Source of the DNA: Gammaproteobacteria bacterium
Lineage (GTDB): Bacteria > Pseudomonadota > Gammaproteobacteria > GCA-001735895
Direction: 5' to 3'
DNA length: 32,884 nt
NCBI GenBank assembly: GCA_014382695.1
Contig: JACNJF010000127.1
Span: 1-32,884 of the forward strand
The notes beneath the pieces were generated by a model. That model did not search any database. It was given only the letters and a program-made list of their open reading frames with translations, and was not told the origin of the DNA. Shown here piece by piece: positions 15,810-30,179 of this stretch (positions are counted from its first letter, which is position 1; every line of letters starts with the position of its first letter). Position numbers and translations under genes: made by a program.

Positions 15810-18800
15810 TTTCTAAGCTGCCTGTGCGGCAGTGAACAATCAAGACCAAAGATAATTGCATGATAATGATTTCTAAGCTGCCTGTGCGGCAGTGAACCTC
15901 AATCAGCATTAACAATAATACTGCTAATTTTTCTAAGCTGCCTGTGCGGCAGTGAACGATGGTCTTTATTTTCACATAATCCTGGAGGTTTTCTAAGCTG
16001 CCTGTGCGGCAGTGAACGAGCCGGGCGCGGCAAAGTATCGCTTTAAAGCTTTCTAAGCTGCCTGTGCGGCAGTGAACGCTGGCTTATTAGGTGGCTTTGA
16101 GCGTGTACGTTTCTAAGCTGCCTGTGCGGCAGTGAACGGCTGTTGTTTGTTGGGTGGAGCGCTGATGAATTTTCTAAGCTGCCTGTGCGGCAGTGAACAA
16201 TAACCCCAGCTGCTCATACTCCCCAGGTGCATTTCTAAGCTGCCTGTGCGGCAGTGAACTCGATATCGACGTTGTGCGGGCGTCCTGGGTATTTCTAAGC
16301 TGCCTGTGCGGCAGTGAACTAAGCGGCAGAGTCGTACGTGACGTCTCCAATTTTCTAAGCTGCCTGTGCGGCAGTGAACCAACAAGGTCATAAAGCTTGT
16401 CGTAATAAGCTTTTCTAAGCTGCCTGTGCGGCAGTGAACACTTGGCGTTTCAAAGTCTATTGTCTCTAATTTTTCTAAGCTGCCTGTGCGGCAGTGAACC
16501 TGAAAATAATCAGCGGCGCGCTGTTGCGTGTTTTCTAAGCTGCCTGTGCGGCAGTGAACGCATTAGAGGAAAACGGCAACGAACCAGGCGCTTTCTAAGC
16601 TGCCTGTGCGGCAGTGAACAAGGCTTTTCCCTATCGATTCCGGCCCTATCTTTTCTAAGCTGCCTGTGCGGCAGTGAACCACCATAAACGCCCACGGCGG
16701 CGGGTTTTTGTTTTCTAAGCTGCCTGTGCGGCAGTGAACGTTCTAAAAGTTAACTCGTGAGCCTTATCATATTTCTAAGCTGCCTGTGCGGCAGTGAACA
16801 CAACCGACATTATTGAAATATATCGGATTATTTTCTAAGCTGCCTGTGCGGCAGTGAACTAAGCGGCAGAGTCGTACGTGACGTCTCCAATTTTCTAAGC
16901 TGCCTGTGCGGCAGTGAACCAACAAGGTCATAAAGCTTGTCGTAATAAGCTTTTCTAAGCTGCCTGTGCGGCAGTGAACACTTGGCGTTTCAAAGTCTAT
17001 TGTCTCTAATTTTTCTAAGCTGCCTGTGCGGCAGTGAACCTGAAAATAATCAGCGGCGCGCTGTTGCGTGTTTTCTAAGCTGCCTGTGCGGCAGTGAACG
17101 CATTAGAGGAAAACGGCAACGAACCAGGCGCTTTCTAAGCTGCCTGTGCGGCAGTGAACAAGGCTTTTCCCTATCGATTCCGGCCCTATCTTTTCTAAGC
17201 TGCCTGTGCGGCAGTGAACCACCATAAACGCCCACGGCGGCGGGTTTTTGTTTTCTAAGCTGCCTGTGCGGCAGTGAACGTTCTAAAAGTTAACTCGTGA
17301 GCCTTATCATATTTCTAAGCTGCCTGTGCGGCAGTGAACACAACCGACATTATTGAAATATATCGGATTATTTTCTAAGCTGCCTGTGCGGCAGTGAACT
17401 CAGGGCAATGATGGCTATAGTTTTCATGACGTTTCTAAGCTGCCTGTGCGGCAGTGAACTTAAATCAATGTCAACAGTAGCCGAAGCTACCTTTCTAAGC
17501 TGCCTGTGCGGCAGTGAACATTTTACTGCGGATGCGTGGCGTGGCGATGACTTTCTAAGCTGCCTGTGCGGCAGTGAACGTTACTGGACCCTGACACTCG
17601 CAGCAGCAGCGTTTCTAAGCTGCCTGTGCGGCAGTGAACTCCAGTTATTTGTCATCCACCTTGCAGAGCTTTTTCTAAGCTGCCTGTGCGGCAGTGAACG
17701 GTTGATAGTACAGTTATTTACAGGACTCCAATTTCTAAGCTGCCTGTGCGGCAGTGAACATAACGACCAGTCTTCATCGCAGTGTACGCATGTTTCTAAG
17801 CTGCCTGTGCGGCAGTGAACATTGTGCGCTCTGCTACAGGGTTTCCTTTCAATTTCTAAGCTGCCTGTGCGGCAGTGAACCATTGACAGCATGGGACTCT
17901 GGATCTGCTGGATTTCTAAGCTGCCTGTGCGGCAGTGAACGTAGGCAGGTGGAAAGGTGGAATATACGCTTGTTTCTAAGCTGCCTGTGCGGCAGTGAAC
18001 GGGTTCTTCCTTGATGAGTTACTTCATCAGACTTTCTAAGCTGCCTGTGCGGCAGTGAACCGTTATCAACATCAGCGTGGAGATTTTCGTATTTTCTAAG
18101 CTGCCTGTGCGGCAGTGAACGTAATGTGGAAACTTCAAGGTTCACTTTAGTATTTCTAAGCTGCCTGTGCGGCAGTGAACTCCGGTTTCCGCATTACCGG
18201 GGCGCTGTTACGTTTCTAAGCTGCCTGTGCGGCAGTGAACATGTAACTGACCCGGTATTATTAAGCTCTTTTTTTCTAAGCTGCCTGTGCGGCAGTGAAC
18301 GCGCAGCCTCGAAATCTTTAACAACTTTGTATTTTCTAAGCTGCCTGTGCGGCAGTGAACTCAGCATCAGCACCCCAACGCTCGACCATAACTTTCTAAG
18401 CTGCCTGTGCGGCAGTGAACGAAAAAGTGCAACTGCGTGCATCGCAGGAACATTTCTAAGCTGCCTGTGCGGCAGTGAACTAGCGCAGCTGGGCATATAG
18501 CGCGGCATCGGATTTCTAAGCTGCCTGTGCGGCAGTGAACTGCGGATTTTATAGCCGGCTGTTTTTTCAGCCTTTCTAAGCTGCCTGTGCGGCAGTGAAC
18601 TCGGGCGGCACGCTGGCGCAGGATTACGACCTTTTCTAAGCTGCCTGTGCGGCAGTGAACGATCGAAGCTTGAACGCTGATGTTGGACAGGTTTTCTAAG
18701 CTGCCTGTGCGGCAGTGAACCTACTTCGGGGAAAAACGCTCCCAAGCAGATATTTCTAAGCTGCCTGTGCGGCAGTGAACATAACAGCGACAGCTCATTG

Positions 18801-19080
18801 ATTCGCGTCAAGTTTCTAAGCTGCCTGTGCGGCAGTGAACGGGTTTGGTGGGGGCTCTGTAAATGCTCCAACTTTCTAAGCTGCCTGTGCGGCAGTGAAC
18901 ATAACGCCGGAAATTTACAACGCAAACCCAGATTTCTAAGCTGCCTGTGCGGCAGTGAACGTTAGGCTTTGCAGCTGTGCGCTGGCGTTGATTTTCTAAG
19001 CTGCCTGTGCGGCAGTGAACAGCCCGCTGGACGCACCACGCAGCACAGCCTTTTTCTAAGCTGCCTGTGCGGCAGTGAAC
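15810..19080 (-). CRISPR. type I-F CRISPR array, 55 repeats and 54 spacers
   Basis: Repeats are 28 bp and, as far as I can read, all 55 are identical. In transcribed (reverse) orientation each begins GTTCACTGCC and ends CTTAGAAA. The middle forms a 5-bp stem CTGCC/GGCAG with loop GCACA, the hairpin cut by Cas6f, leaving the 8-base handle CTTAGAAA. Spacers are 32 bases except three of 33 (16138-16170, 16199-16231, 17760-17792). The leader is at the right end (beyond 19080), next to cas6f, so the newest spacers are at the right and the oldest at the left. Nine spacers occur twice, leaving 45 distinct. No spacer target could be assigned by eye. Confidence 0.99.
16320..17399. repeat. tandem duplication of nine spacer-repeat units inside the array
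   Basis: Bases 16320-16859 are repeated without change as 16860-17399: two 540-base copies of nine spacers each in the same order. With the flanking repeat the identity runs 569 bases (16292-16860 against 16832-17400). Unequal crossing-over between identical CRISPR repeats explains it; an assembly error is the alternative. Confidence 0.97.
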
Positions 19081-19163
19081 TGAAGATAATTGATATTTAT
19101 TTCATGCGCAACAAACACTTACAGTCATTTTCACCGTTTTACCAATGAATAATGACTCTCGTG

Positions 19164-19176
19164 TAAGTTATTGATT
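19164..19176 (-). promoter_or_regulatory. IHF-consensus site in the leader
   Basis: On the reverse strand AATCAATAACTTA matches the IHF consensus WATCAANNNNTTR at every defined position. It lies 84-96 bases from the first repeat. IHF bending of the leader is known to guide Cas1-Cas2 integration in types I-E and I-F, so this is a plausible adaptation site. Confidence 0.65.
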
Positions 19177-19185
19177 TTTATAGAT

Positions 19186-19197
19186 TGTTAAAGAGCG
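19186..19197 (-). promoter_or_regulatory. boxA antitermination element in the leader
   Basis: On the reverse strand the leader reads CGCTCTTTAACA, the boxA sequence of ribosomal RNA leaders, 106 bases before the first repeat. BoxA bound by NusB/S10 on the nascent RNA makes RNA polymerase resist Rho. BoxA in leaders of long CRISPR arrays has been described and protects pre-crRNA from early Rho termination. A 3.3-kb untranslated array would need this. Confidence 0.75.
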
Positions 19198-19205
19198 TTA
19201 AAAAT

Positions 19206-19221
19206 ATTGGTTTAAACCAAT
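19206..19221. promoter_or_regulatory. 16-bp perfect palindrome in the leader
   Basis: ATTGGTTTAAACCAAT is a perfect palindrome just upstream of boxA. About half of one such palindrome is expected by chance in the whole window, so its place in a 258-base leader is suggestive of a dimer-binding operator, but no regulator is identified. Confidence 0.4.
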
Positions 19222-19338
19222 CAATTACACTGTCTCTCAGAGAAAGCGAAAGCAGTTACGTTTTAGCTTACCCGGTCTACCCACATCTTCCGGCAACCGG
19301 GGTCTTTCTAAAACATTTATTTGTTATTCTTGGCAGTC

Positions 19339-19914
19339 TCAAAACCAGGGGACTGTCGCGGTTATGGATAGACCGTAACAATTGAACGAACCCTCTACAG
19401 CGCTTAGGTTCACTTCTTTCTCTATAATCAATCTCCATTGCTCACCTTTCGACAGGCTTTTCAAATTGATATAAGGCAATTTACTCTGCTCGTTTTCAAA
19501 ACCTTCGAAATGCACCAAAGCGTGTTCGTAGCTTTCACTTTTTCGCTTCGCTCTGCGCCGCGCCAGTCGCTCAACATTGCTACTGAACTGCTTACGCCTG
19601 AACACGGCGTACTCTGTCACTGCGGGGATTGGTTTTATTGATGTGTAGTGGCAATAGTCACTGAGACGGTTAAGCCACTTCGATAAATTCAAGCCTTCCA
19701 ACCAAGTTGCTTCTTCGGCCAATAAGCGCAGTTTGCTTCCTAATGGAAATGCCTTGCTACCATATTCTGGAAACGAAACAGCAACCAGCGAATGATTCTC
19801 GCCCACCTTGTTTTCAACAAGCGCCAGGTGAATTTGTTGATAGACCTTTTGCCAGAGGAAGCCTAGATTGGCCTCGGCATCCGGGAGCAGGGTTATGTCG
19901 CAATAGTGTTTCAT
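19339..19914 (-). CDS. cas6f: Cas6f (Csy4) CRISPR RNA endonuclease
   Basis: A 191-residue type I-F processing nuclease that cuts pre-crRNA 3' of the repeat hairpin and stays bound to the crRNA end in the surveillance complex. The catalytic histidine H29 (YQQIHLAL) is at the same number as in Pseudomonas Csy4. The serine loop is kept at S153/S155 (LKSLSKG). The arginine-rich helix that grips the hairpin is ERLARRRAKRK (115-125), and the protein ends in the family tail CYGLSITATVPWF. It follows cas7f with a two-base gap and is the last cas gene before the leader. Confidence 0.96.
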   Translation of the reverse strand: MKHYCDITLLPDAEANLGFLWQKVYQQIHLALVENKVGENHSLVAVSFPEYGSKAFPLGSKLRLLAEEATWLEGLNLSKWLNRLSDYCHYTSIKPIPAVTEYAVFRRKQFSSNVERLARRRAKRKSESYEHALVHFEGFENEQSKLPYINLKSLSKGEQWRLIIEKEVNLSAVEGSFNCYGLSITATVPWF

Positions 19915-19916
19915 CC

Positions 19917-20906
19917 TTATTCACCTTCCGAAAACACACCACCACGAATAAGCATTGCGACAACAAAGTGCTTTTCAATATCAGACAAATCATCATCATT
20001 CATCCATTTTGTGAGCAGGGTTTTGAAGTCATTCCGGCTTGAACGGTAGGCTACGCCACGTTGCGTGACAGAACCATATGCTTCAATTGCTATAGGTGAT
20101 TCTGAGCCTGTTTGCCAGTCATCGATTGTTCTTAGAGCATTGCCGATTTTTTCACAATGCATTGCAGCGTTACCATCCAATGCAAACAAATGGCGGCTTT
20201 TTTCTCCTTTAGGAATTTTCAATACCATTTCCTGGGAAGGCCAAACCCGCTGCCGGTTTCCCAGTTTTGCATAGGCATCAACTTCAATAAAAATATTGTT
20301 ATCATCATTTAAACCTTGCTCAATTATGCCGCCAAGTGTTGCAACACTATCGTCCTCTGAAGATGCTTTATTTAACGGGTAATCGTAAGCATTGAAGATG
20401 AGAGGGGAATCCAGGCTATTGTGTTTAACATAGATAATGATTTCTTGAGCACCGACACGATTGCGCCAAAGGAACCGTCCATTAGCGATGTTACAGGCAT
20501 ATCGATTGGCTAATTCTCCAAATCCAATATCACTTTTATAGCTATCAATCACTCCAGTAAACTTATCCTGGTAGTCTTTTTTATTACAGGCAGACGGTTT
20601 ATTAATACCACCCAAAACACGTAAACTAAAGCTAACTCTCAAAGTATCCCTATTCGATGGTAATGTAGCATCATCGCCCCATGACAGGTTGGGCTCTTCT
20701 ATCTGTTTTTTTAACTCTTCCTCATCGTTTAATACTTCCTGTTTAAAGTTACTCTTAACCGCGCGATTTCTACGATCAAATAATTCAATTGGCTCCCAAC
20801 CATTCGTTTTACTGATCTCACTCCAATTACCTGAATACATAACAGCATCCGAAGGTTCGAGCTTACGATCAAAAGATAATACGGTAGGCATTGTTAATGT
20901 AGGCAT
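19917..20906 (-). CDS. cas7f: Cas7f (Csy3) backbone subunit of the I-F surveillance complex
   Basis: A 329-residue protein that polymerises (six copies in the characterised Pseudomonas complex) along the crRNA spacer. Strong family signatures are LSFDRKLEPSDAVMYSG at the N-terminus, the central LRVLGGINKPSACN, then NIANGRFLWRNRVGAQ, KIGNALRTIDDW, and IRGGVFSEGE at the end. Length is close to the 342 residues of the Pseudomonas protein. The start at 20906 is fixed by AAGGAG seven bases upstream, inside the 12-base gap after cas5f. No residue looks abnormal. Confidence 0.97.
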   Translation of the reverse strand: MPTLTMPTVLSFDRKLEPSDAVMYSGNWSEISKTNGWEPIELFDRRNRAVKSNFKQEVLNDEEELKKQIEEPNLSWGDDATLPSNRDTLRVSFSLRVLGGINKPSACNKKDYQDKFTGVIDSYKSDIGFGELANRYACNIANGRFLWRNRVGAQEIIIYVKHNSLDSPLIFNAYDYPLNKASSEDDSVATLGGIIEQGLNDDNNIFIEVDAYAKLGNRQRVWPSQEMVLKIPKGEKSRHLFALDGNAAMHCEKIGNALRTIDDWQTGSESPIAIEAYGSVTQRGVAYRSSRNDFKTLLTKWMNDDDLSDIEKHFVVAMLIRGGVFSEGE

Positions 20907-20918
20907 AGTGATTTCTCC

Positions 20919-21950
20919 TTAAAGGTTTGACAGCGCTGTTTGAAAATCAAGGGTTTCACTTTCTTCAGAAAGTGATGTTTGTTGTGAAGATTTTTTTGTT
21001 GTTTCTTGAGTGCATAGATACCAATCGTTATCAGGTTGATATCTCCAAATAATCTCATTGATATTAGTTATCCGATGCATGCTTTTCCATTCTCCAATCG
21101 TATGTACCGCTTCCACAAAACGTGATGGTGTCTCGGCGTCACGGGTATTGGCTACCTCGCCTGCTGGGTAGACCTGACTGATAGCTTTGTATCCCGTCAT
21201 TATCGGAACTAACCAGCCTTTTTCGGGTTTTGCTAATAATTCCCAATCAGCATCTGTTTCTGCTGTGGCTTCGAGTTCATTTTTCTTAAGCTTAGGTTGC
21301 GCCTGATATTTCATCGCTGAAAAATCCAACCAGCCGTCGAGTAGTCCTGCATTTTCATCCATTTCTTTTAATCGTTGAAAATGCCTTTTTAAATATTCTG
21401 AGCGATCCTTTAAGACGAAGCCCGGCATTGTAAGTCGTTTAAGTTTTTTGGTTAATTTGTTGAGCTGTTCATTGGTTGATGCGGACAATAAATCAATCCG
21501 GCCTATTGATAGTATCGTGCCGCCTGCGAATCGACTTTTTAAGCAGTGCGCTAAAACAGCCTGTTTCAATTGTTTTATCGACGCCTCATTAGTGGTTAAT
21601 TCTTTTGAAACCTCAATAACCATCGAAGTGGTTAAATTCATTTTCCCTTCTTCAATAATAGAAGGAGTTTTCATTAGTCCCTTGTCAAATTTAGGCTTAA
21701 ATGTGTACGAGCCTTTACTCTGTAAAAATTCAAAGTTGGCTCTGGGGCTTGGTTTATAAACGCGTAATTGATAATCATGGCTGACAATAGCGCAGCCACC
21801 TAAAGCAATATCGAATGTTGCTGATAGTTGCCGCTGCATTGCATGAGTAAATCCAAGATAATGAGTAATAGCTGGGAAGCCCCAGGTGAAGCCCGCAATG
21901 CAATTGGCATTTTGAATTTGTATGCGACTTAATACTAAGTACTGGCTCAT
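20919..21950 (-). CDS. cas5f: Cas5f (Csy2) subunit of the I-F surveillance complex
   Basis: A 343-residue protein that, with Cas8f, caps the 5' handle of the crRNA and helps PAM recognition. The N-terminus MSQYLVLSRIQIQNANCIAGFTWGFPAITHYLGF is characteristic of Csy2, with HAMQR and GGCAIVSHDYQLR following. I chose the ATG at 21950. It lies four bases after the cas8f stop, with GGAG seven bases ahead, and begins at the conserved strand. The frame extends upstream to 22001, but that part overlaps the end of cas8f and has no family match. The Ser/Thr-rich C-terminal tail (STKKSSQQTSLSEES-like, about the last 35 residues) looks like a disordered extension. Confidence 0.95.
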   Translation of the reverse strand: MSQYLVLSRIQIQNANCIAGFTWGFPAITHYLGFTHAMQRQLSATFDIALGGCAIVSHDYQLRVYKPSPRANFEFLQSKGSYTFKPKFDKGLMKTPSIIEEGKMNLTTSMVIEVSKELTTNEASIKQLKQAVLAHCLKSRFAGGTILSIGRIDLLSASTNEQLNKLTKKLKRLTMPGFVLKDRSEYLKRHFQRLKEMDENAGLLDGWLDFSAMKYQAQPKLKKNELEATAETDADWELLAKPEKGWLVPIMTGYKAISQVYPAGEVANTRDAETPSRFVEAVHTIGEWKSMHRITNINEIIWRYQPDNDWYLCTQETTKKSSQQTSLSEESETLDFQTALSNL

Positions 21951-21954
21951 TACA

Positions 21955-23463
21955 TTACTCCTGTGTAGCGATGAATTCGCGAAGCTGAGGACTAAACACA
22001 TCTTTCCACAGACGCTGCTGAGTGAGTGTCAAATTCAATTGTTTATGCTTGAGCTGTCTATTTAACCACTCTGCAAAATCGTCAGAGACTTCAGACAGCC
22101 ATTGCTTTTTATTTCTCTCTTGAATTGCCTCCTCATCATCCCTACCCGGCTCCAGAAGTAATTGCTGGGGTAAAGTCAGCGAAGATTTTTGAGTCCAGCC
22201 TTTTTCATTGTTTAATAAACTGAACTTTATGATTTCAACAAAAAAGGCCTGAGCAATGTCACTTACATACCCCACGATAGCCTGGTGCATTTCAGGCTTT
22301 TTACTACCGATTCCTTTGGATTTGATGACTAATAATAAGCGCTGCAAGTCTTTTACTTCGTCCTTCAATTTGAAACTCAACTGCCGATTAAAAAGATTGG
22401 TTTGATTCAGGGAAAGTTTCTCGTTTGATTGCCATTTGGGTGGTGAGCAGGGTAATAGTGTTAGCTCTCCAAAACGATCTTTATTAAGGGATGAAATATT
22501 GCTATGCGCCTTTACGCTTCGAGTAAGCGTTAAAGTTGCCTTATTGGAATAAGAAGTTGCAATCTTTTCGTCAAATTTCTTCTTGCTCTTTTGCTCTCTA
22601 ATTGATTTATGCCCTTCATTAGATAGCTCCCTAAATTTTAAAAATAGAGCATGTGCCATTGTTGACGATACTAATGGCAATAATAGATGGTACTGCTGGT
22701 TTTCAATTGGGTAATAAACTTGCTTCGATAGGAAATGACTGGTTTTATGATCACTGTCGTAAGCTTGTTTAAAACATGAAATCCAATTCTCTATATATTC
22801 CTTGTTGTCAGTTAAATGCTCAAAGGCTGTTCGATCATCTTCTTTAACATAATCTAGCAAGCTTTTGTCGTTGATTTGAAGCGTCAGGATTTCACCAGCT
22901 GGGGCAGATGCGGCATTGGCAGTTGCAGTGTCAGTCTCCAGCCACTTAAGCATATTTGTCGTTAAATAGGCATGATTAGACGATGTGGTTTTATCAAAAA
23001 TACTCGAGCCTTTACTACTGGAGTGTGTGAGCTTGGCGACATGTGTTGCAAAACTGATATCACTAGCTTTTACTGCCCACTGGTTTAGCCATGCAGTGGG
23101 GACGTGCTCTTGATTAATGATATGTAATGTTTCTCTGTACTCCTGGGTAATATCTAAAACCAGGTTATCTATTTGATGTTCGCCCAATAAAAACAATAGT
23201 GCCTGATATTTACTTTGTTGAAATTCAAGCGCAGATTGAGCTTTGTCCTTCTTTTTGCTGATTAAAATCTTTAGTGGCTCATGTGACTTTCCAAAAAAGG
23301 TTTCTGCAGCCTTAGTCAGACGAATATTAATGCCTCCTATGCCTTTATTAGGTTTTTCTTTTAACAGCGCCAATTCTTTTTTATCTCGACGTTCAGAAAT
23401 ATAACGACTAATTTCTTGCGCCATTAGTTTTGATTCATCACTACTATTCATCAATATACTCAT
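21955..23463 (-). CDS. cas8f: Cas8f (Csy1) large subunit of the I-F surveillance complex
   Basis: A 502-residue protein in the csy1 position, larger than the roughly 430 residues of the Pseudomonas protein. Csy1 is the fast-evolving subunit that reads the PAM and recruits Cas2-3. Recognisable family stretches include FFGKSHEPLKILISKKKDKAQSALEFQQSKYQALLFLLGEHQ-like text near residues 56-97. Others are KQVYYPIENQQYHLLLPLVSSTMAH near 245-270 and LTLLPCSPPKWQ near 335. It overlaps the end of cas2-3 by 20 bases. The in-frame ATG at 23451 is an equally good start because AAAGG almost touches the first ATG. Confidence 0.93.
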   Translation of the reverse strand: MSILMNSSDESKLMAQEISRYISERRDKKELALLKEKPNKGIGGINIRLTKAAETFFGKSHEPLKILISKKKDKAQSALEFQQSKYQALLFLLGEHQIDNLVLDITQEYRETLHIINQEHVPTAWLNQWAVKASDISFATHVAKLTHSSSKGSSIFDKTTSSNHAYLTTNMLKWLETDTATANAASAPAGEILTLQINDKSLLDYVKEDDRTAFEHLTDNKEYIENWISCFKQAYDSDHKTSHFLSKQVYYPIENQQYHLLLPLVSSTMAHALFLKFRELSNEGHKSIREQKSKKKFDEKIATSYSNKATLTLTRSVKAHSNISSLNKDRFGELTLLPCSPPKWQSNEKLSLNQTNLFNRQLSFKLKDEVKDLQRLLLVIKSKGIGSKKPEMHQAIVGYVSDIAQAFFVEIIKFSLLNNEKGWTQKSSLTLPQQLLLEPGRDDEEAIQERNKKQWLSEVSDDFAEWLNRQLKHKQLNLTLTQQRLWKDVFSPQLREFIATQE

Positions 23464-26400
23464 CCTTTGTCAGTTCCTTAAAAACGCCCAAATTTTCGTG
23501 ATATTTCCAACGAGCAACTTCATCGTTGCTACTTCTTCTCAGTTGAAGATGTGAAAACTTTTTATATGCATAATCTTCTGAAATGTCGAAGAGAGCTATT
23601 AACCGATTCATGCTTTTGGTAATGGACAGGTCGAACCAGGAAACATTGTTTTCTGCCATTAATAAATCTTTAGAGCCTAATGTGTAAATATCAGTGCTCG
23701 TGTCATATTTTGCGGGATATTCGCGCGGTCTCTTTTTTTGCCAAATACATTTTTGGTGATAGCTCATATTAAAGTTGTAATCGTCTGTTACCTGCGACTG
23801 CCTAAATGGCTGATTTCTCTGTATTTCACCGCTCCAGGTTACATGATTTTGCCACCATAATTTGGCAGAGTTTTCTTCATTTTCGTTACCAAAGAGTCTG
23901 ATGTGTTGGACGATATGTTCGAGTTCATTAAAGCTTTTAAATCTCTTGGGTATGTCATCAGTCAATGCAAAAGGTGGTGAAATTCTAGCAATTCTCGGAA
24001 TCGCACTGATCGTAGTATATTCATTCTCACCCAAGAGGTTTGAAAGTAGAGGGCTATAAAATCGGCGCTGAGCAGTTTCAAAACCAGGACGGCAATAAGC
24101 AGGTGATTCACCTTTTAGAGCCTTAAAATTTTCATCCAGAATAAAAATGTTTTCAGAGATTGGGATTTGTTTTCTATGCCGCTGTACACGCCCCGCCAAC
24201 TGTATGATTGAGCGCATTGAGCTTGGCTCCACAATGGCCCAGTCGTAGTCGTGATCGCGCCCAACTTCGGCGACTGAGGTCGCCAATACTACAAAGATAT
24301 GATTAGTAAGGTGGCTGTTATTGATCGTTTCTTCAATACCGCTGTCTTTCCACCATTGTGTTTCATCATGGCGGGAAAGCGCCTTGTCGAGATTTTCTTC
24401 AATTTGCGAGCGCAACGCTAGCGGATATTGACTGTGGTAGACACAATAATAAATTTTCGTATCTTCTGAAGATTGTATGGCATACAAGTGTTTAGCTACC
24501 GAAACTAACGGATCTATATTCGCCATTCTTATCAGGCCAATCGAGACCTTCTTTTGGGAACTGTGTACAACGCAATTTAGTTGATGCAGCGGGGCGATTG
24601 ATGAATGAATGGTATGTGCAAAGACTTCACTGGGCTTTAAACCTTCCTGCATGCTGATAGGAATAATTTTTGCCTTTCTTAGATTTTCCGCTTTATTGGT
24701 GAGCTTATCAATTCGGCTGTTGATGAATTTTGTATGTGCCGCGCCAAAATCATCGAGTGAGTTTACTGCGTGGCTCATGGGCTTTTTATATTCATCGAAC
24801 CAGGCGCAGCAAATCGTATCAGATACACCTTGCTCACCATTAACCTGGGTGTAGTGCTTTCGACCTTGCTGATAAGCATCAAATAATGCCGATGCTAACT
24901 CAGGTGGAATGGTTGCTGTTGATAGCAATACTTTTGATCCCAACATGCCTGCCCAATTAACGAGTCGGCATAAGGCAGGGAGGTCTTCCAGACCAAAATC
25001 ATCCGGTTCATCCAGTACCAGGTCTGAGGTGAGTAGCCTAAGCATAGGGGCTATTTGTCTTCCTCCGCGCAGGCCATCTGTTGCCGGGATCAGATAATCA
25101 ATAGTGCTTACCAGAACAGGCGCCTGTATTAATTTTAATATTTTCGCATCATGTTCAACATATTCAGCAAGAATGCTATCGTGGTCGGGGAGCTGATGGT
25201 GGAGTTGAAGCTCGTCTTTTAACAGCGACTCGGCTGACTCACTGCCTAGCTGTTGCTCCTGGCTTAGTTCTTGTTCACGACCTAATTGGTGTAAATCTTT
25301 AACGGCTTGCGAACCAATTAAAACAGCCAGTTCTGCATAGGAGAGGTGTAAATTATTTTTTAATGCTTCGCCTGTTTGCAATGTCAGTGTTCTTAAACCA
25401 AGAGCTACACTAAAGCGACATTCATTTTCCTCTGATACCCCAAACATAATACGTGCGTTTGCCCTGGTTTTACCTTTTCCGGTTGATGCCATATTAACCC
25501 CAAAAAAACCATGATCTTTACTTTCATCGCGTAGTTCCTGGGCTTTAGTAAACGCATTATCCTGCCAACCAAAGTCAGCCTTATATTCTTTTTCAACGGC
25601 TTGAGTAAATGATTTATTGGCTTTTAAGCTGGGCAATGACTTTTTCAGACCAGGGAGTTTTCTTGCAATTTTTCGGGCATGGGCACCCACGGCAATATTA
25701 TGCTCATCCAGTTTTTGTTTTTTATATTTACCTGTCTCTGAATCAAAACCTGTATTGGCATAAGCTTGATAATTCCTGTCTTGCCACTCTTTTGTTACTT
25801 CTGTTTTTGAAGAATAGTAATGATCGGAAAGCATGAGTGATAATCGCGCCAGGTGCGCGGTAAACCTTTGCTCCAGCCAGTCATCGGCAAATATTCGTTC
25901 AAGCCTTAATGTTTCATCCGCAATAATACTGACTTGCGTTTGCCATATTGCGCTTTTAAAGGGTGTCCCATAGGGAAAATGCCAATTCTGTTCAATTGTA
26001 TCTGTACCCCAATCTTCGGTAAGACATTGTGGCGAATTCCAGCAGGCCTCAAAGTATTCATTTAACCACGAATCAATATTCTGTAGAGACGGCGGGTTGC
26101 CCCCTGTTTTCGGGTATTGAGGCAGGCGATGGTGAGAAACAATCAGCCAGGCGACAATTTTTGCAATCGGCTCAAAGTTAGTAAAAGGATTCTTTATATT
26201 CGTGTTCAGGCCATCCCTTAATAATTCAAGATTTTTAAGCATGAGTTCTTCTGCCTTATTATCGATATTTTTTAGTGCCTGTAACCACTCGATATCTTTT
26301 TTACCATTAACGAAGGCTTGAAATAATCTGAATGAAACCCACTCATGTCGATAAGGCTCAAAGCCTTTTCCACGATAATCAGGCTCAAGTTTATTTTGAA

Positions 26401-26788
26401 ACAAAAGCATTGACTTTCCAATGTCATGAAAAAAACCGGCCAAACAGGCGAGTAAAGCAATAACTTCGGAATTCATATTGAAAGACTCAGCTATATCTTT
26501 TGACACCAATGTGAAATTCACCGGTACAACCCCCTGCGCATTAAACTTCCCCCTGTTCCCCACAATCCACACCAGCTCACTTCGACTCCTCGACCTCAAC
26601 CAGTGACAACTCACCGCCGTATTCTTACTCGCCGTTTTCCGCAGCAGTTTCTTCACCGCCAGCAAACCTTCATTAGTAATCACGGTTTGCCAGGTTCTAT
26701 TGCCGATCCGGTTGGCGAAGGCATCGAGCACTCTGCGTGTCCGGTTGAGGGCTTTCTTTTCGCATTGCGATACGAAGGTGACCATCAT
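23444..26788 (-). CDS. cas3f: Cas2-3 fusion (adaptation subunit plus nuclease-helicase)
   Basis: A 1114-residue type I-F Cas2-Cas3 fusion. Residues 1-90 are the Cas2 domain (FVSQCEKKALNRTRRVLDAF, RTWQTVITNEGL), which partners Cas1 in spacer integration. The HD nuclease follows (H121-D122 in FFHDIGKS, then H148 and HH219-220). The superfamily 2 helicase has Walker A STGKGKT (435-441), DEPD (593-596), STAT (623-626) and a late QLAGRVQRHR. It degrades target DNA once recruited by the crRNA complex. All catalytic motifs look intact. Its ATG shares one base with the TGA of the BRO-N gene, so translation should be coupled to it. Confidence 0.97.
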   Translation of the reverse strand: MMVTFVSQCEKKALNRTRRVLDAFANRIGNRTWQTVITNEGLLAVKKLLRKTASKNTAVSCHWLRSRSRSELVWIVGNRGKFNAQGVVPVNFTLVSKDIAESFNMNSEVIALLACLAGFFHDIGKSMLLFQNKLEPDYRGKGFEPYRHEWVSFRLFQAFVNGKKDIEWLQALKNIDNKAEELMLKNLELLRDGLNTNIKNPFTNFEPIAKIVAWLIVSHHRLPQYPKTGGNPPSLQNIDSWLNEYFEACWNSPQCLTEDWGTDTIEQNWHFPYGTPFKSAIWQTQVSIIADETLRLERIFADDWLEQRFTAHLARLSLMLSDHYYSSKTEVTKEWQDRNYQAYANTGFDSETGKYKKQKLDEHNIAVGAHARKIARKLPGLKKSLPSLKANKSFTQAVEKEYKADFGWQDNAFTKAQELRDESKDHGFFGVNMASTGKGKTRANARIMFGVSEENECRFSVALGLRTLTLQTGEALKNNLHLSYAELAVLIGSQAVKDLHQLGREQELSQEQQLGSESAESLLKDELQLHHQLPDHDSILAEYVEHDAKILKLIQAPVLVSTIDYLIPATDGLRGGRQIAPMLRLLTSDLVLDEPDDFGLEDLPALCRLVNWAGMLGSKVLLSTATIPPELASALFDAYQQGRKHYTQVNGEQGVSDTICCAWFDEYKKPMSHAVNSLDDFGAAHTKFINSRIDKLTNKAENLRKAKIIPISMQEGLKPSEVFAHTIHSSIAPLHQLNCVVHSSQKKVSIGLIRMANIDPLVSVAKHLYAIQSSEDTKIYYCVYHSQYPLALRSQIEENLDKALSRHDETQWWKDSGIEETINNSHLTNHIFVVLATSVAEVGRDHDYDWAIVEPSSMRSIIQLAGRVQRHRKQIPISENIFILDENFKALKGESPAYCRPGFETAQRRFYSPLLSNLLGENEYTTISAIPRIARISPPFALTDDIPKRFKSFNELEHIVQHIRLFGNENEENSAKLWWQNHVTWSGEIQRNQPFRQSQVTDDYNFNMSYHQKCIWQKKRPREYPAKYDTSTDIYTLGSKDLLMAENNVSWFDLSITKSMNRLIALFDISEDYAYKKFSHLQLRRSSNDEVARWKYHENLGVFKELTKDEYIDE

Positions 26789-27636
26789 CAGGTTTTATCT
26801 GTTCCTTTTTTGATGCGTTTATTTCCGGGAGGCAAGTAGTTATTGTCAGTGACCACTTTTTTACCGGTTTTTGCTTCCAGCTCTTTTCGTGCCCTTTTGG
26901 CAATATTGCCGCCTGATTTGGCGGATGTTTTATTTTCATCCATTCCTGTCGATTCATCAGTTTCGGCGATTTGGCGGGTGGATAGTTCGGCAAGTGCGGT
27001 AAAGATTAATTCTGCCTCACTCATGTGATCACGTAAATTCTGGCTGCTCAGCCCTTTAAGATTTTTGTGTTCTTTGACGCTGACTTCTGCCCATTCCTGA
27101 TGAATGATGTTGGTGAGTATGGCGAATTCTTTACCTTGTTTGATGTCATGTTCACCCCAGTAATCGGTGAGTTTGTTGCGGGTTTCCTGTCCGGTCATCC
27201 GTTGTTGTATCCACTTTTTGCTGCGGCCATGTTTTTGCCAGGTTTCCCTGGCTCGGTTCAGCGATATGGCCGGGTCTGCCATTTCCTGCATGCGTTCATA
27301 ACCCACTTTGGCTAACCAGAGCTTGATCGGCTCGGCTTTAGGGCTGGGAACGGATTGTACGAGTCGCAGTAAGGTTTCTGCGGTGGCAACGTCAGTGAGA
27401 TATTTTTTCCCGTCAGCAGCGATTAATTTCAGTCGGTGACAATCTGTCACCGACTGACTGCCTTCTTTTTTCAGTCGTTGTTTCAGCTTGTTCCAGTATT
27501 TTCTGGCAGTCTGATAATCGGCCTGTTGTGTTAATACCTGCATGATATCAATCACTGAAAACCACCATACTTCAGTATCTTCATCGTATACCCGGCGTAT
27601 CTGATAATCTTCGAATAGGGTCATGTCATCATTCAT
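26788..27636 (-). CDS. BRO-N / DinD-like protein embedded in the cas operon
   Basis: A 282-residue protein that is not a standard Cas protein. Residues 8-112 form a BRO-N domain (YQIRRVYDED, WWFSVIDIMQVL, SPKAEPIKLWLAKVGYERM), the DNA-binding fold of phage antirepressors and baculovirus BRO proteins. The C-terminal half has a DinD-like motif (LRDHMSEAELIF, 201-212) and a basic GGNIAKRARKELEAKTGKK stretch (242-260). E. coli DinD is an SOS-induced protein reported to interfere with RecA strand exchange. The gene begins directly after the cas1 stop (TAA then ATG) and ends overlapping the cas2-3 start (TGATG), so it is co-translated with the adaptation genes. Its role here, whether regulator, adaptation cofactor or passenger, is unknown. 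Codon and base composition look like those of the cas genes. Confidence 0.85.
   Translation of the reverse strand: MNDDMTLFEDYQIRRVYDEDTEVWWFSVIDIMQVLTQQADYQTARKYWNKLKQRLKKEGSQSVTDCHRLKLIAADGKKYLTDVATAETLLRLVQSVPSPKAEPIKLWLAKVGYERMQEMADPAISLNRARETWQKHGRSKKWIQQRMTGQETRNKLTDYWGEHDIKQGKEFAILTNIIHQEWAEVSVKEHKNLKGLSSQNLRDHMSEAELIFTALAELSTRQIAETDESTGMDENKTSAKSGGNIAKRARKELEAKTGKKVVTDNNYLPPGNKRIKKGTDKT
27431..27455. repeat. perfect inverted repeat inside the BRO-N gene
   Basis: The arms AGTCGGTGACA and TGTCACCGACT pair over all 11 bases around the loop ATC. It lies in codons 61-69 of the BRO-N gene (QSVTDCHRL). As RNA it forms a very stable stem in the middle of the operon; as DNA it could be a dimer-binding site. 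Confidence 0.8.
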
Positions 27637-28626
27637 TTAAACTATTTCCTGTTCGTTGTTTATGGAAGCTTTTAGATGATATGTTTCATGATGTTGTAAG
27701 GCGATTGCCTTTACCTGATCGAACATAAAATCAAGCGCCTTATGCTGGGTGAAGTTTTGCAGGCATTGCTGACGAAATTCCTGTTCGGTGGCTCCCTCTT
27801 TGGCACAGATGAAGGCCCACGGTAATACCAGTGTATCTTTGATCAGATCGGCCACATCGAACACCAGCGCGCCCCTGCGGGTTTTGCCGTGCATCACGGC
27901 GAATCCATGCGGGATGCCGAGTACCCATAGCGTGGTGGCTGCCAGTCCATAGGCCAGATAGTTGCCATGATTGAGGAAGGCATTGGCAGCGTCCACACTG
28001 TCGTGCTGACGCACAAAGTCTTTCTGTCGGGTGTTATTGGCGGCTATTTTGTACAGGCTTTTGGTGAGCTGTGCCTCCATTAACAGAAGCTTTGTGACAT
28101 CGGTGGATTGTTCTATCTGCAGGCTGAATGACGCCAGTGCACGTTGTAGATCCTGGTCATCGGTATGAAACCCTTCATTCTGTAAATCCCGGTCATGACT
28201 CCAGACGCTTTGCAGGTATTCGATGCGGCGTTGTTGGAATTGTTTGGCAACCTGAAGTCTTTTCGCTTCGTCGAACCAGAAAGCCATCCAGCCCTGTACA
28301 TATTCAGTCGGTCGATATTCACTTTGCGGGCTGAGCCATTCAATTTCATTAGCGGCTATCAGCGGCGTGCCACCAGTGCCACTGAACCCGATCAACACGC
28401 CAGCCGAGGCCAGCATTCTGACTGCCGCCTGGGTAATGGATGTACCGGTACCGAGTAGAATGCAGGTGGTATTCGCGATGGGGATATTCCAGTATTGCTT
28501 CTCGACCTTTTCTTCGGTCAGGTACAGCACGCGCCCACTTTTTTGCATGACGCGGCATTTTTCCAGATAAAAGATGTTGGCGCGTTTAGAGTGCAGAATG
28601 GCTTTCAGATCGGTTAAGGCTTCCAT
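27637..28626 (-). CDS. cas1: Cas1 (type I-F integrase)
   Basis: A 329-residue integrase that inserts new spacers at the leader end together with the Cas2 part of Cas2-3. The metal-binding active site is visible as E184 (LLMEAQLTKSLYK), H246 (FAVMHGKTRRG) and D260 (VFDVADLIKD). The H-to-D spacing of 14 equals that of the Pseudomonas enzyme. The N-terminal beta domain (AILHSKRANIFYLEKCRVM, VLLGTG-like, GVLIGFSGTGGTPLI) is typical of the I-F branch. First gene of the operon; its ribosome site is weak. The promoter must lie in the A+T-rich region to the right. Confidence 0.97.
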   Translation of the reverse strand: MEALTDLKAILHSKRANIFYLEKCRVMQKSGRVLYLTEEKVEKQYWNIPIANTTCILLGTGTSITQAAVRMLASAGVLIGFSGTGGTPLIAANEIEWLSPQSEYRPTEYVQGWMAFWFDEAKRLQVAKQFQQRRIEYLQSVWSHDRDLQNEGFHTDDQDLQRALASFSLQIEQSTDVTKLLLMEAQLTKSLYKIAANNTRQKDFVRQHDSVDAANAFLNHGNYLAYGLAATTLWVLGIPHGFAVMHGKTRRGALVFDVADLIKDTLVLPWAFICAKEGATEQEFRQQCLQNFTQHKALDFMFDQVKAIALQHHETYHLKASINNEQEIV

Positions 28627-29411: not shown

Positions 29412-30179
29412 CTAGAACCCTGTAATAATCCGCTTCAGGTGCTCAGCATCCTCTTCAAGATCATCGAATGCATAGGCATTCAGAAATTGTCTACGCCATA
29501 GTATGGTTCGATCGGTTGCGCTTAAAGAAGCTTCATCGCAGACTTCACCCCAGTGGCTAATGATCGATTTTATCTGGTTTTCAGCAATGTCGATGGCTTC
29601 TTTTCGGGACAGCAGAAAATGCCCGACCGCATCAAAGCAGGACGAAAGCCGGCTCATGCGGTCGTTACCGGTTATCAGCATGGCCTGGGATGTCTCATTA
29701 CCAGTACGTGCCTGCGGACAGATATCGTAGGCCGGTGTTAGCTCCAGTACTTGCCCATCCCAGAATGCGGCACGGTTGCGCGCATGATCATCCGTATTGC
29801 CACATAGGACGTTAAAAACCAGCTTTGAATACAGCTCTAACAGTGTTGACTGGGCATCGACAAAACGATGTCGAACAAGCTCTGCGTGGTCTTCGTAACT
29901 GGCATATCGCGCCATCATTTCATCCAGTGACAGCATGGTCAGCGCAGATACCATGGCCTTACGCTGCCAACCGGAAACCTAACGTGTTCGATCGAAGCGC
30001 TCAATCAGTAACACATCTTTATTCAGTGAACGGGTTAGTGAAACCGATGCAGCATCAATGCCAGCCAAAGCTGCCAAACGCATGGCTATAAACTCAGCCT
30101 TGACCACACTATACAGGTCATTGGCGGAGGAAAATTTGGTGATATATTTCTTTTCACCGCCTTCAATCTGAGCCAGCAT
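29412..30179 (-). pseudogene. hipA-like toxin kinase, truncated and interrupted by an amber codon
   Basis: The frame encodes the C-terminal HipA kinase region in two in-frame pieces. The first, at 30179-29979, holds EKKYITKFSSANDLYSVVKAEF, then DVLLIERFDRTR and a TAG at 29981-29979. The second continues VSGWQRKAMVSALTMLSLDEM with the catalytic-loop motif NVLCGNTDDHARNRAAF and ends IITGF. No frameshift is needed, only the stop. The N-terminal HipA domain and phosphate-binding loop (about 170 residues in full HipA) are missing, and no HipB antitoxin gene is seen. HipA kinases phosphorylate glutamyl-tRNA synthetase, and the gene lies beside tRNA-Glu, probably by coincidence. It is most likely dead. 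Confidence 0.85.

Follow-up and report, generated by a model that had tools for sequence, protein, structure and literature searches.

The I-F CRISPR array of contig JACNJF010000127.1 lies behind a leader that contains boxA, and the question this locus raises is whether boxA works there as RNA, on the polymerase that transcribes the array, or has some other part in the leader. In rRNA operons boxA is bound by NusB and S10 (NusE), together with NusA, NusG and SuhB. The analysis started from the window, by which we mean the whole 32,884-nt stretch of DNA examined, and was extended to I-F leaders from other genomes.

The CRISPR-Cas locus and its leader

The features of the window needed for the argument, in the direction of transcription, are as follows.

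27637..28626, minus strand: cas1 (PF01867)
23444..26788, minus strand: cas2/3 (PF21384, PF22590)
21955..23463, minus strand: csy1 (cas8f; PF09611)
20919..22001, minus strand: csy2 (cas5f; PF09614)
19917..20906, minus strand: csy3 (cas7f; PF09615)
19339..19914, minus strand: cas6f (csy4; PF09618)
19081..19338, minus strand: leader region of 258 nt, between the cas6f stop and the first repeat
19206..19221, no strand: palindrome ATTGGTTTAAACCAAT, adjoining boxA upstream; its AAACCAAT half is leader arm 1
19186..19197, minus strand: boxA CGCTCTTTAACA, spanning -117 to -106 relative to the first repeat (the position of class A, see below)
19164..19176, minus strand: IHF-distal site AATCAATAACTTA (WATCAANNNNTTR), at -96, 21 nt past the boxA start
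19134..19147, minus strand: leader arm 2 CATTGGTAAAACGG, complementary to arm 1
15810..19080, minus strand: I-F CRISPR array of 3,271 nt, with 55 identical 28-nt repeats (all GTTCACTGCCGCACAGGCAGCTTAGAAA) and 54 spacers

The full I-F set (cas1, cas2/3, csy1-3 and cas6f) is thus present together with an I-F repeat, the cas genes lying upstream of the array on the same strand. The leader fits the I-F layout, with an IHF site near -96 and inverted-repeat arms, and arm 2 resembles I-F inverted-repeat motifs that are reported to be Cas2/3-bound (PMC12259127). In RNA fold predictions the palindrome ATTGGTTTAAACCAAT forms a small hairpin, beside which boxA is mostly unpaired.

Three further observations concern this region. 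Inside the cas operon, cas1 and cas2/3 are separated by a gene with a Bro-N domain (26788-27636), which corresponds to the PADLOC candidate PDC-S13 (E 2.8e-120). Counted from the leader, spacers 29-37 are exactly the same as spacers 38-46 (window 16350-17440), and this repeated block of nine spacers is either a tandem duplication within the array or an assembly error. Near cas1, a 180-aa ORF (29412-29954) aligns with the C-terminal portion of HipA, over positions 80-213 of a 213-position profile, and is possibly a truncated gene.

A perfect boxA on the transcribed strand

The initial annotation had placed a boxA on the transcribed strand of the leader, and this was confirmed: CGCTCTTTAACA is read on the minus strand from 19197 to 19186 with zero mismatches, and the cas genes and the array lie on that strand too. 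Its location was given correctly and its distance was not, the spacing to the first of the 55 repeats being 105 nt and not 106. The element satisfies the published boxA consensus GYTCTTTAANA (PMC5725501), C4 and T6 included, C4A being a boxA mutant used in E. coli (PMC5725501), and against this consensus it was rightly called a perfect match to the rRNA boxA.

Within the window the exact CGCTCTTTAACA is single-copy, and the 11-mer GCTCTTTAACA has only 2 copies in the 3.99-Mb assembly, one in this leader and one in contig 151, in surroundings that are not rrn; from this frequency the chance of a hit on one strand of the 258-nt leader is, by our own arithmetic, roughly 6e-5. No 16S gene was found in the assembly. 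The rrn leader boxA is CGATCTTTAACA or CGATCTTTAAAA in two members of the family, and one member has TGTTCTTTAAAA as its 16S-23S spacer boxA; the CRISPR boxA of the window differs by one base from the CGATCTTTAACA of a near relative.

Conservation of boxA in I-F leaders

Leaders were collected from Cas6f loci (whole genomes) and Csy3 loci (named genomes and viral contigs), giving 115 candidates, 93 of which were clean and non-redundant; boxA was called at a match of at least 11 of 12 positions, and the chance baseline was obtained from 300 first-order Markov simulations of the same leaders. A search for boxA in related I-F leaders had been proposed as a check on the window element, and the outcome is clear: boxA is present on the transcribed strand of 63 of the 93 leaders, about two thirds, and on the opposite strand of none, with a mean of 1.36 and a maximum of 5 in the simulated sets. 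Exact GYTCTTTAANA occurs in 44 leaders in the sense and in 0 of 93 in the antisense direction.

Circularity was limited by a second selection of sites on TCTTTAA alone. Among the 54 sites so selected, boxA position 2 is G in 49, and the position that is free in the published consensus does vary (30 A, 18 C, 5 T and 1 G). Since the leader is AT-rich and the motif short, and since boxA-like matches with up to two mismatches occur in the window at the frequency expected by chance, a chance match had to be considered; with boxA in 63 of 93 leaders where chance gives 1.4 on average, and with no case on the other strand, it is already statistically refuted and hardly credible.

No boxA is recognisable ahead of several I-F arrays of which about 70 repeats are in view (e.g., L097, L122 and L125), so boxA is not indispensable. 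The Tn7-like I-F3 comparison, used as a no-acquisition control, comprised a single locus with a short array and without boxA.

Two observations on the distribution of I-F leaders may be added. In L016, a locus of the window's genus, an array of different, I-C-like repeats has beside it a fragment of cas6f and an I-F leader that contains CGCTCTTTAAAA at -81. Four I-F loci (L084, L104, L124 and L129) were found in MAGs labelled Chlorobium, Chlorobiaceae, Desulfuromonadaceae and Saprospiraceae, which may represent either transfer beyond Pseudomonadota or mis-binning.

Two fixed positions and the geometry of IHF sites

Nearly all boxA copies fall at about -118 or about -40: in class A (37 leaders) boxA starts at -117 to -120, the window leader at -117, and in class B (24 leaders) it starts at -39 or -40. 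Cultured species whose leaders belong to class A include Shewanella sp. AS1, Undibacterium aquatile and Psychrobacter immobilis. When GYTC is used as a seed at both positions, TTTAA mostly comes next. The IHF-distal site keeps its place, -95 to -98, in almost every class A leader and in the majority of class B leaders, which puts boxA about 22 nt upstream of it in class A and about 56 nt downstream of it in class B. An apparent class at -76 (Salinivibrio L076 and L092) was rejected, as the wrong one of two sites had been taken and the true slot is at -119.

The constancy of these positions to 1-3 nt, which is tighter than an RNA signal should need, speaks for a different reading, namely that the element is a DNA motif of spacer acquisition, such as an extended IHF site, within the leader platform that IHF and Cas1-2/3 fold, and that its likeness to boxA is convergent. 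The surroundings agree with this, since boxA in class A lies between arm 1 and the IHF-distal site, its A-run coinciding with the A-tract expected of an IHF site, and in class B continues directly into a second, IHF-like site. I-F integration needs IHF and leader inverted repeats (PMC12259127), and acquisition in A. baumannii depends critically on an A-rich region (PMC9602844). However, an A-tract explains neither the GYTC half of the element nor the choice of A or C at position 11, the same layout of IHF site and arms is found in many leaders without boxA, and two non-equivalent places relative to a constant IHF-distal site are hard to reconcile with a single fixed role in a folded integration complex. 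Lineage-specific pairing between the inverted-repeat arms was looked for and is absent: exchanging the partners left the scores unchanged, since all the arms follow one common consensus.

Leader boxA and the rrn boxA of the host

If boxA is recognised by NusB/S10, lineages with an odd rrn boxA are expected to carry an odd boxA in the CRISPR leader as well. Psychrobacter immobilis has TACTATTTAAAA in the rrn leader and GAACTATTTAAAAAC in the rrn spacer, and GAACTATTTAAAAAC also occupies the boxA slot of its CRISPR leader; in P. lutiphocae the core CTATTTAAAA occurs both in rrn and in the CRISPR leader. The Psychrobacter rrn pattern was matched by 1 of 48 other genomes, and there without rrn context, and CTATTTAAAA was found in a Vibrio plasmid leader too. 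Lysobacteraceae NML95-0200 has TCTTTGAAA in rrn and TGTTCTTTGAAA in the CRISPR leader, TCTTTGAAA being common to both. Against these stand Acinetobacter, in which the rrn boxA is TCATTAA and yet the CRISPR leader has TATTCTTTAACAG, with the core TCTTTAACA kept, and Legionella, in which the rrn boxA is likewise TCATTAA and the CRISPR boxA of L. pneumophila Lens is reported as GTTCTTTAAAA (PMC7862264).

The tracking of host variants at the level of sequence favours boxA, but with two lineages for it (Psychrobacter and Lysobacteraceae) and two against (Acinetobacter and Legionella). The sharing of rrn variants in the first two also counts against the DNA motif of spacer acquisition described above, which we regard as unlikely. 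General copying of the host rrn boxA by each leader was rejected, as most leaders differ from it within the consensus and Acinetobacter contradicts it.

The sequence of boxA, its strand, its conservation, its two positions, its fit to the published boxA requirements and its sharing of the host rrn variant in two lineages are what the data show. Judged by sequence comparison, the window element is a genuine rRNA-type boxA and part of a conserved I-F CRISPR leader.

Is boxA part of the array RNA?

The 330 nt upstream of the array were searched with a sigma70 weight matrix, whose values are consensus scores and whose hits are predicted sites only. The two best are the following.

19083..19111, minus strand: best sigma70-like promoter (predicted), TTGCGC-17-TATCTT, abutting the first repeat; the start would fall downstream of boxA
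19314..19342, minus strand: second-best promoter-like sequence (predicted), TTGAGA-17-TAAATG, overlapping the cas6f stop; the start would include boxA in the RNA

The initial annotation had taken boxA to lie within the array transcript, and this is at odds with the predicted best promoter, from which the RNA would start downstream of boxA. Its further expectation, that the oldest spacers are still transcribed, is not derivable from sequence alone, and I-F arrays of about 70 repeats without a recognisable boxA exist. The literature searched yielded no mapped start site of an I-F array.

In both classes of leader the mean sigma70 score peaks at -3 to -9 relative to the repeat, and class A has a promoter-like trend next to the repeat, TTGTAA-16-TATWCT-N3-repeat. 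This trend, the abutting best site in the window and the existence of long arrays without boxA suggest that class A boxA might be real but idle, the array starting at the repeat-proximal promoter and boxA being a remnant or guarding only rare read-through. The I-F leader of phage ICP1 (L149) would agree, as it has a similar promoter-like sequence, TTGAAA-16-TATAGT, directly before the first repeat and is without boxA. On the other hand, conservation across distant genera makes idleness unlikely, and the -35 part of the repeat-proximal sequence overlaps an inverted IHF-like sequence, so that the conservation of these bases may not mean a promoter; we consider an idle boxA distinctly improbable.

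In a typical class A leader, the start of boxA is about 10-40 nt past the stop of a gene read in the same direction, in most cases cas6f and elsewhere another gene. At this point an RNA would leave translation and open to Rho. The corresponding gap in the window, from the cas6f stop to boxA, is 141 nt.

This gap, about 140 nt of single-copy sequence (19198-19338) where most class A leaders have 10-40 nt, was also considered as a genomic repeat between cas6f and the leader, which was ruled out, the 131 nt tested being single-copy. The palindrome ATTGGTTTAAACCAAT resembles a cas6f gene end followed by a leader arm (cf. L034 and L045), and may be left over from an earlier end of cas6f. In several other I-F loci the class A leader follows directly on a kinase-like gene (AAA_33 / zeta-toxin family) whose stop lies shortly before boxA (L039:2669-3250, L096:7102-7683 and L055:7111-7695), and L016, of the window's genus, may have a similar kinase-like gene end.

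Proposed mechanism

The reading that we favour, and hold to be somewhat probable, is that boxA works as RNA on polymerase arriving from upstream, with Nus antitermination protecting the array from Rho. RNA polymerase would enter the leader by read-through of the cas1-cas6f operon or from a putative promoter upstream of 19197; boxA in the nascent RNA would be bound by NusB/S10, which would load the Nus antitermination complex, and this would protect the untranslated 3.3-kb array against Rho. RNA that starts at the repeat-adjacent promoter-like sequence would be without boxA, and it is this predicted promoter downstream of boxA that makes upstream-entering polymerase the favoured target. The presence of boxA in the RNA, Nus binding and antitermination are here what we infer. 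In P. atrosepticum (Pectobacterium) the I-F cas genes form one operon (PMC4499141), and the I-F leader of P. aeruginosa CRISPR2 is transcribed and is a target of Rho (PMC6700203).

The downstream promoter signal, the 141-nt gap, the tight positions, the overlap with IHF sites, Acinetobacter and Legionella, and the long arrays without boxA all weigh against the action of boxA on upstream polymerase. A stricter version, which we advance tentatively and think rather doubtful, is that class A boxA, being placed ahead of the promoter of the array itself, acts solely on polymerase reading through from the cas operon, full-length transcription of the array thereby being tied to cas expression. If this were true, I-F arrays would have two modes of transcription, one short-range from the repeat and one Rho-proof from the cas genes.

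Comparison with known systems

Antitermination of CRISPR arrays by boxA was reportedly described by Stringer et al. 2020, with boxA in the CRISPR leader and a proposed protection from Rho. PMC12691694, PMC10883916 and PMC7862264 treat it as established that the rrn antitermination complex protects CRISPR arrays, the last also reporting a boxA ahead of the array of L. pneumophila Lens, and the initial annotation was thus correct that such antitermination had already been described (PMC12691694, PMC7862264). Our analysis extends this published principle of rRNA-style antitermination to the I-F array of JACNJF010000127.1, where the function is predicted, and shows that many I-F leaders carry boxA, at one of two discrete positions that are documented here. 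That boxA lies upstream of the apparent promoter is a conflict which bears on the expression of old, far-end spacers in long arrays and on whether the leader motif serves transcription, spacer acquisition or both.

The window element resembles the boxA of rrn operons in that it conforms to GYTCTTTAANA, its required positions are the conserved ones, it lies on the sense strand, it precedes a long untranslated RNA and it has a hairpin just upstream; it differs in that the leader has no visible boxC-like context, its position is phased to the repeat, and its presence in RNA and binding by Nus factors are predicted. Like the CRISPR-array boxA systems, it lies in the leader (at -117), upstream of a long array (3,271 nt), but unlike the case of Stringer et al. 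2020, the predicted promoter in the window would exclude boxA from the RNA. With the I-F integration platform the leader shares an IHF-distal site and complementary arms in the expected order (PMC12259127), and no boxA was seen in the passages on that platform. In the PhrS system of P. aeruginosa CRISPR2, protection is by an sRNA and boxA has 0 occurrences in the paper (PMC6700203); what the present locus would have in common with it is a feature of that system, an I-F leader that is transcribed and is terminated by Rho unless protected.
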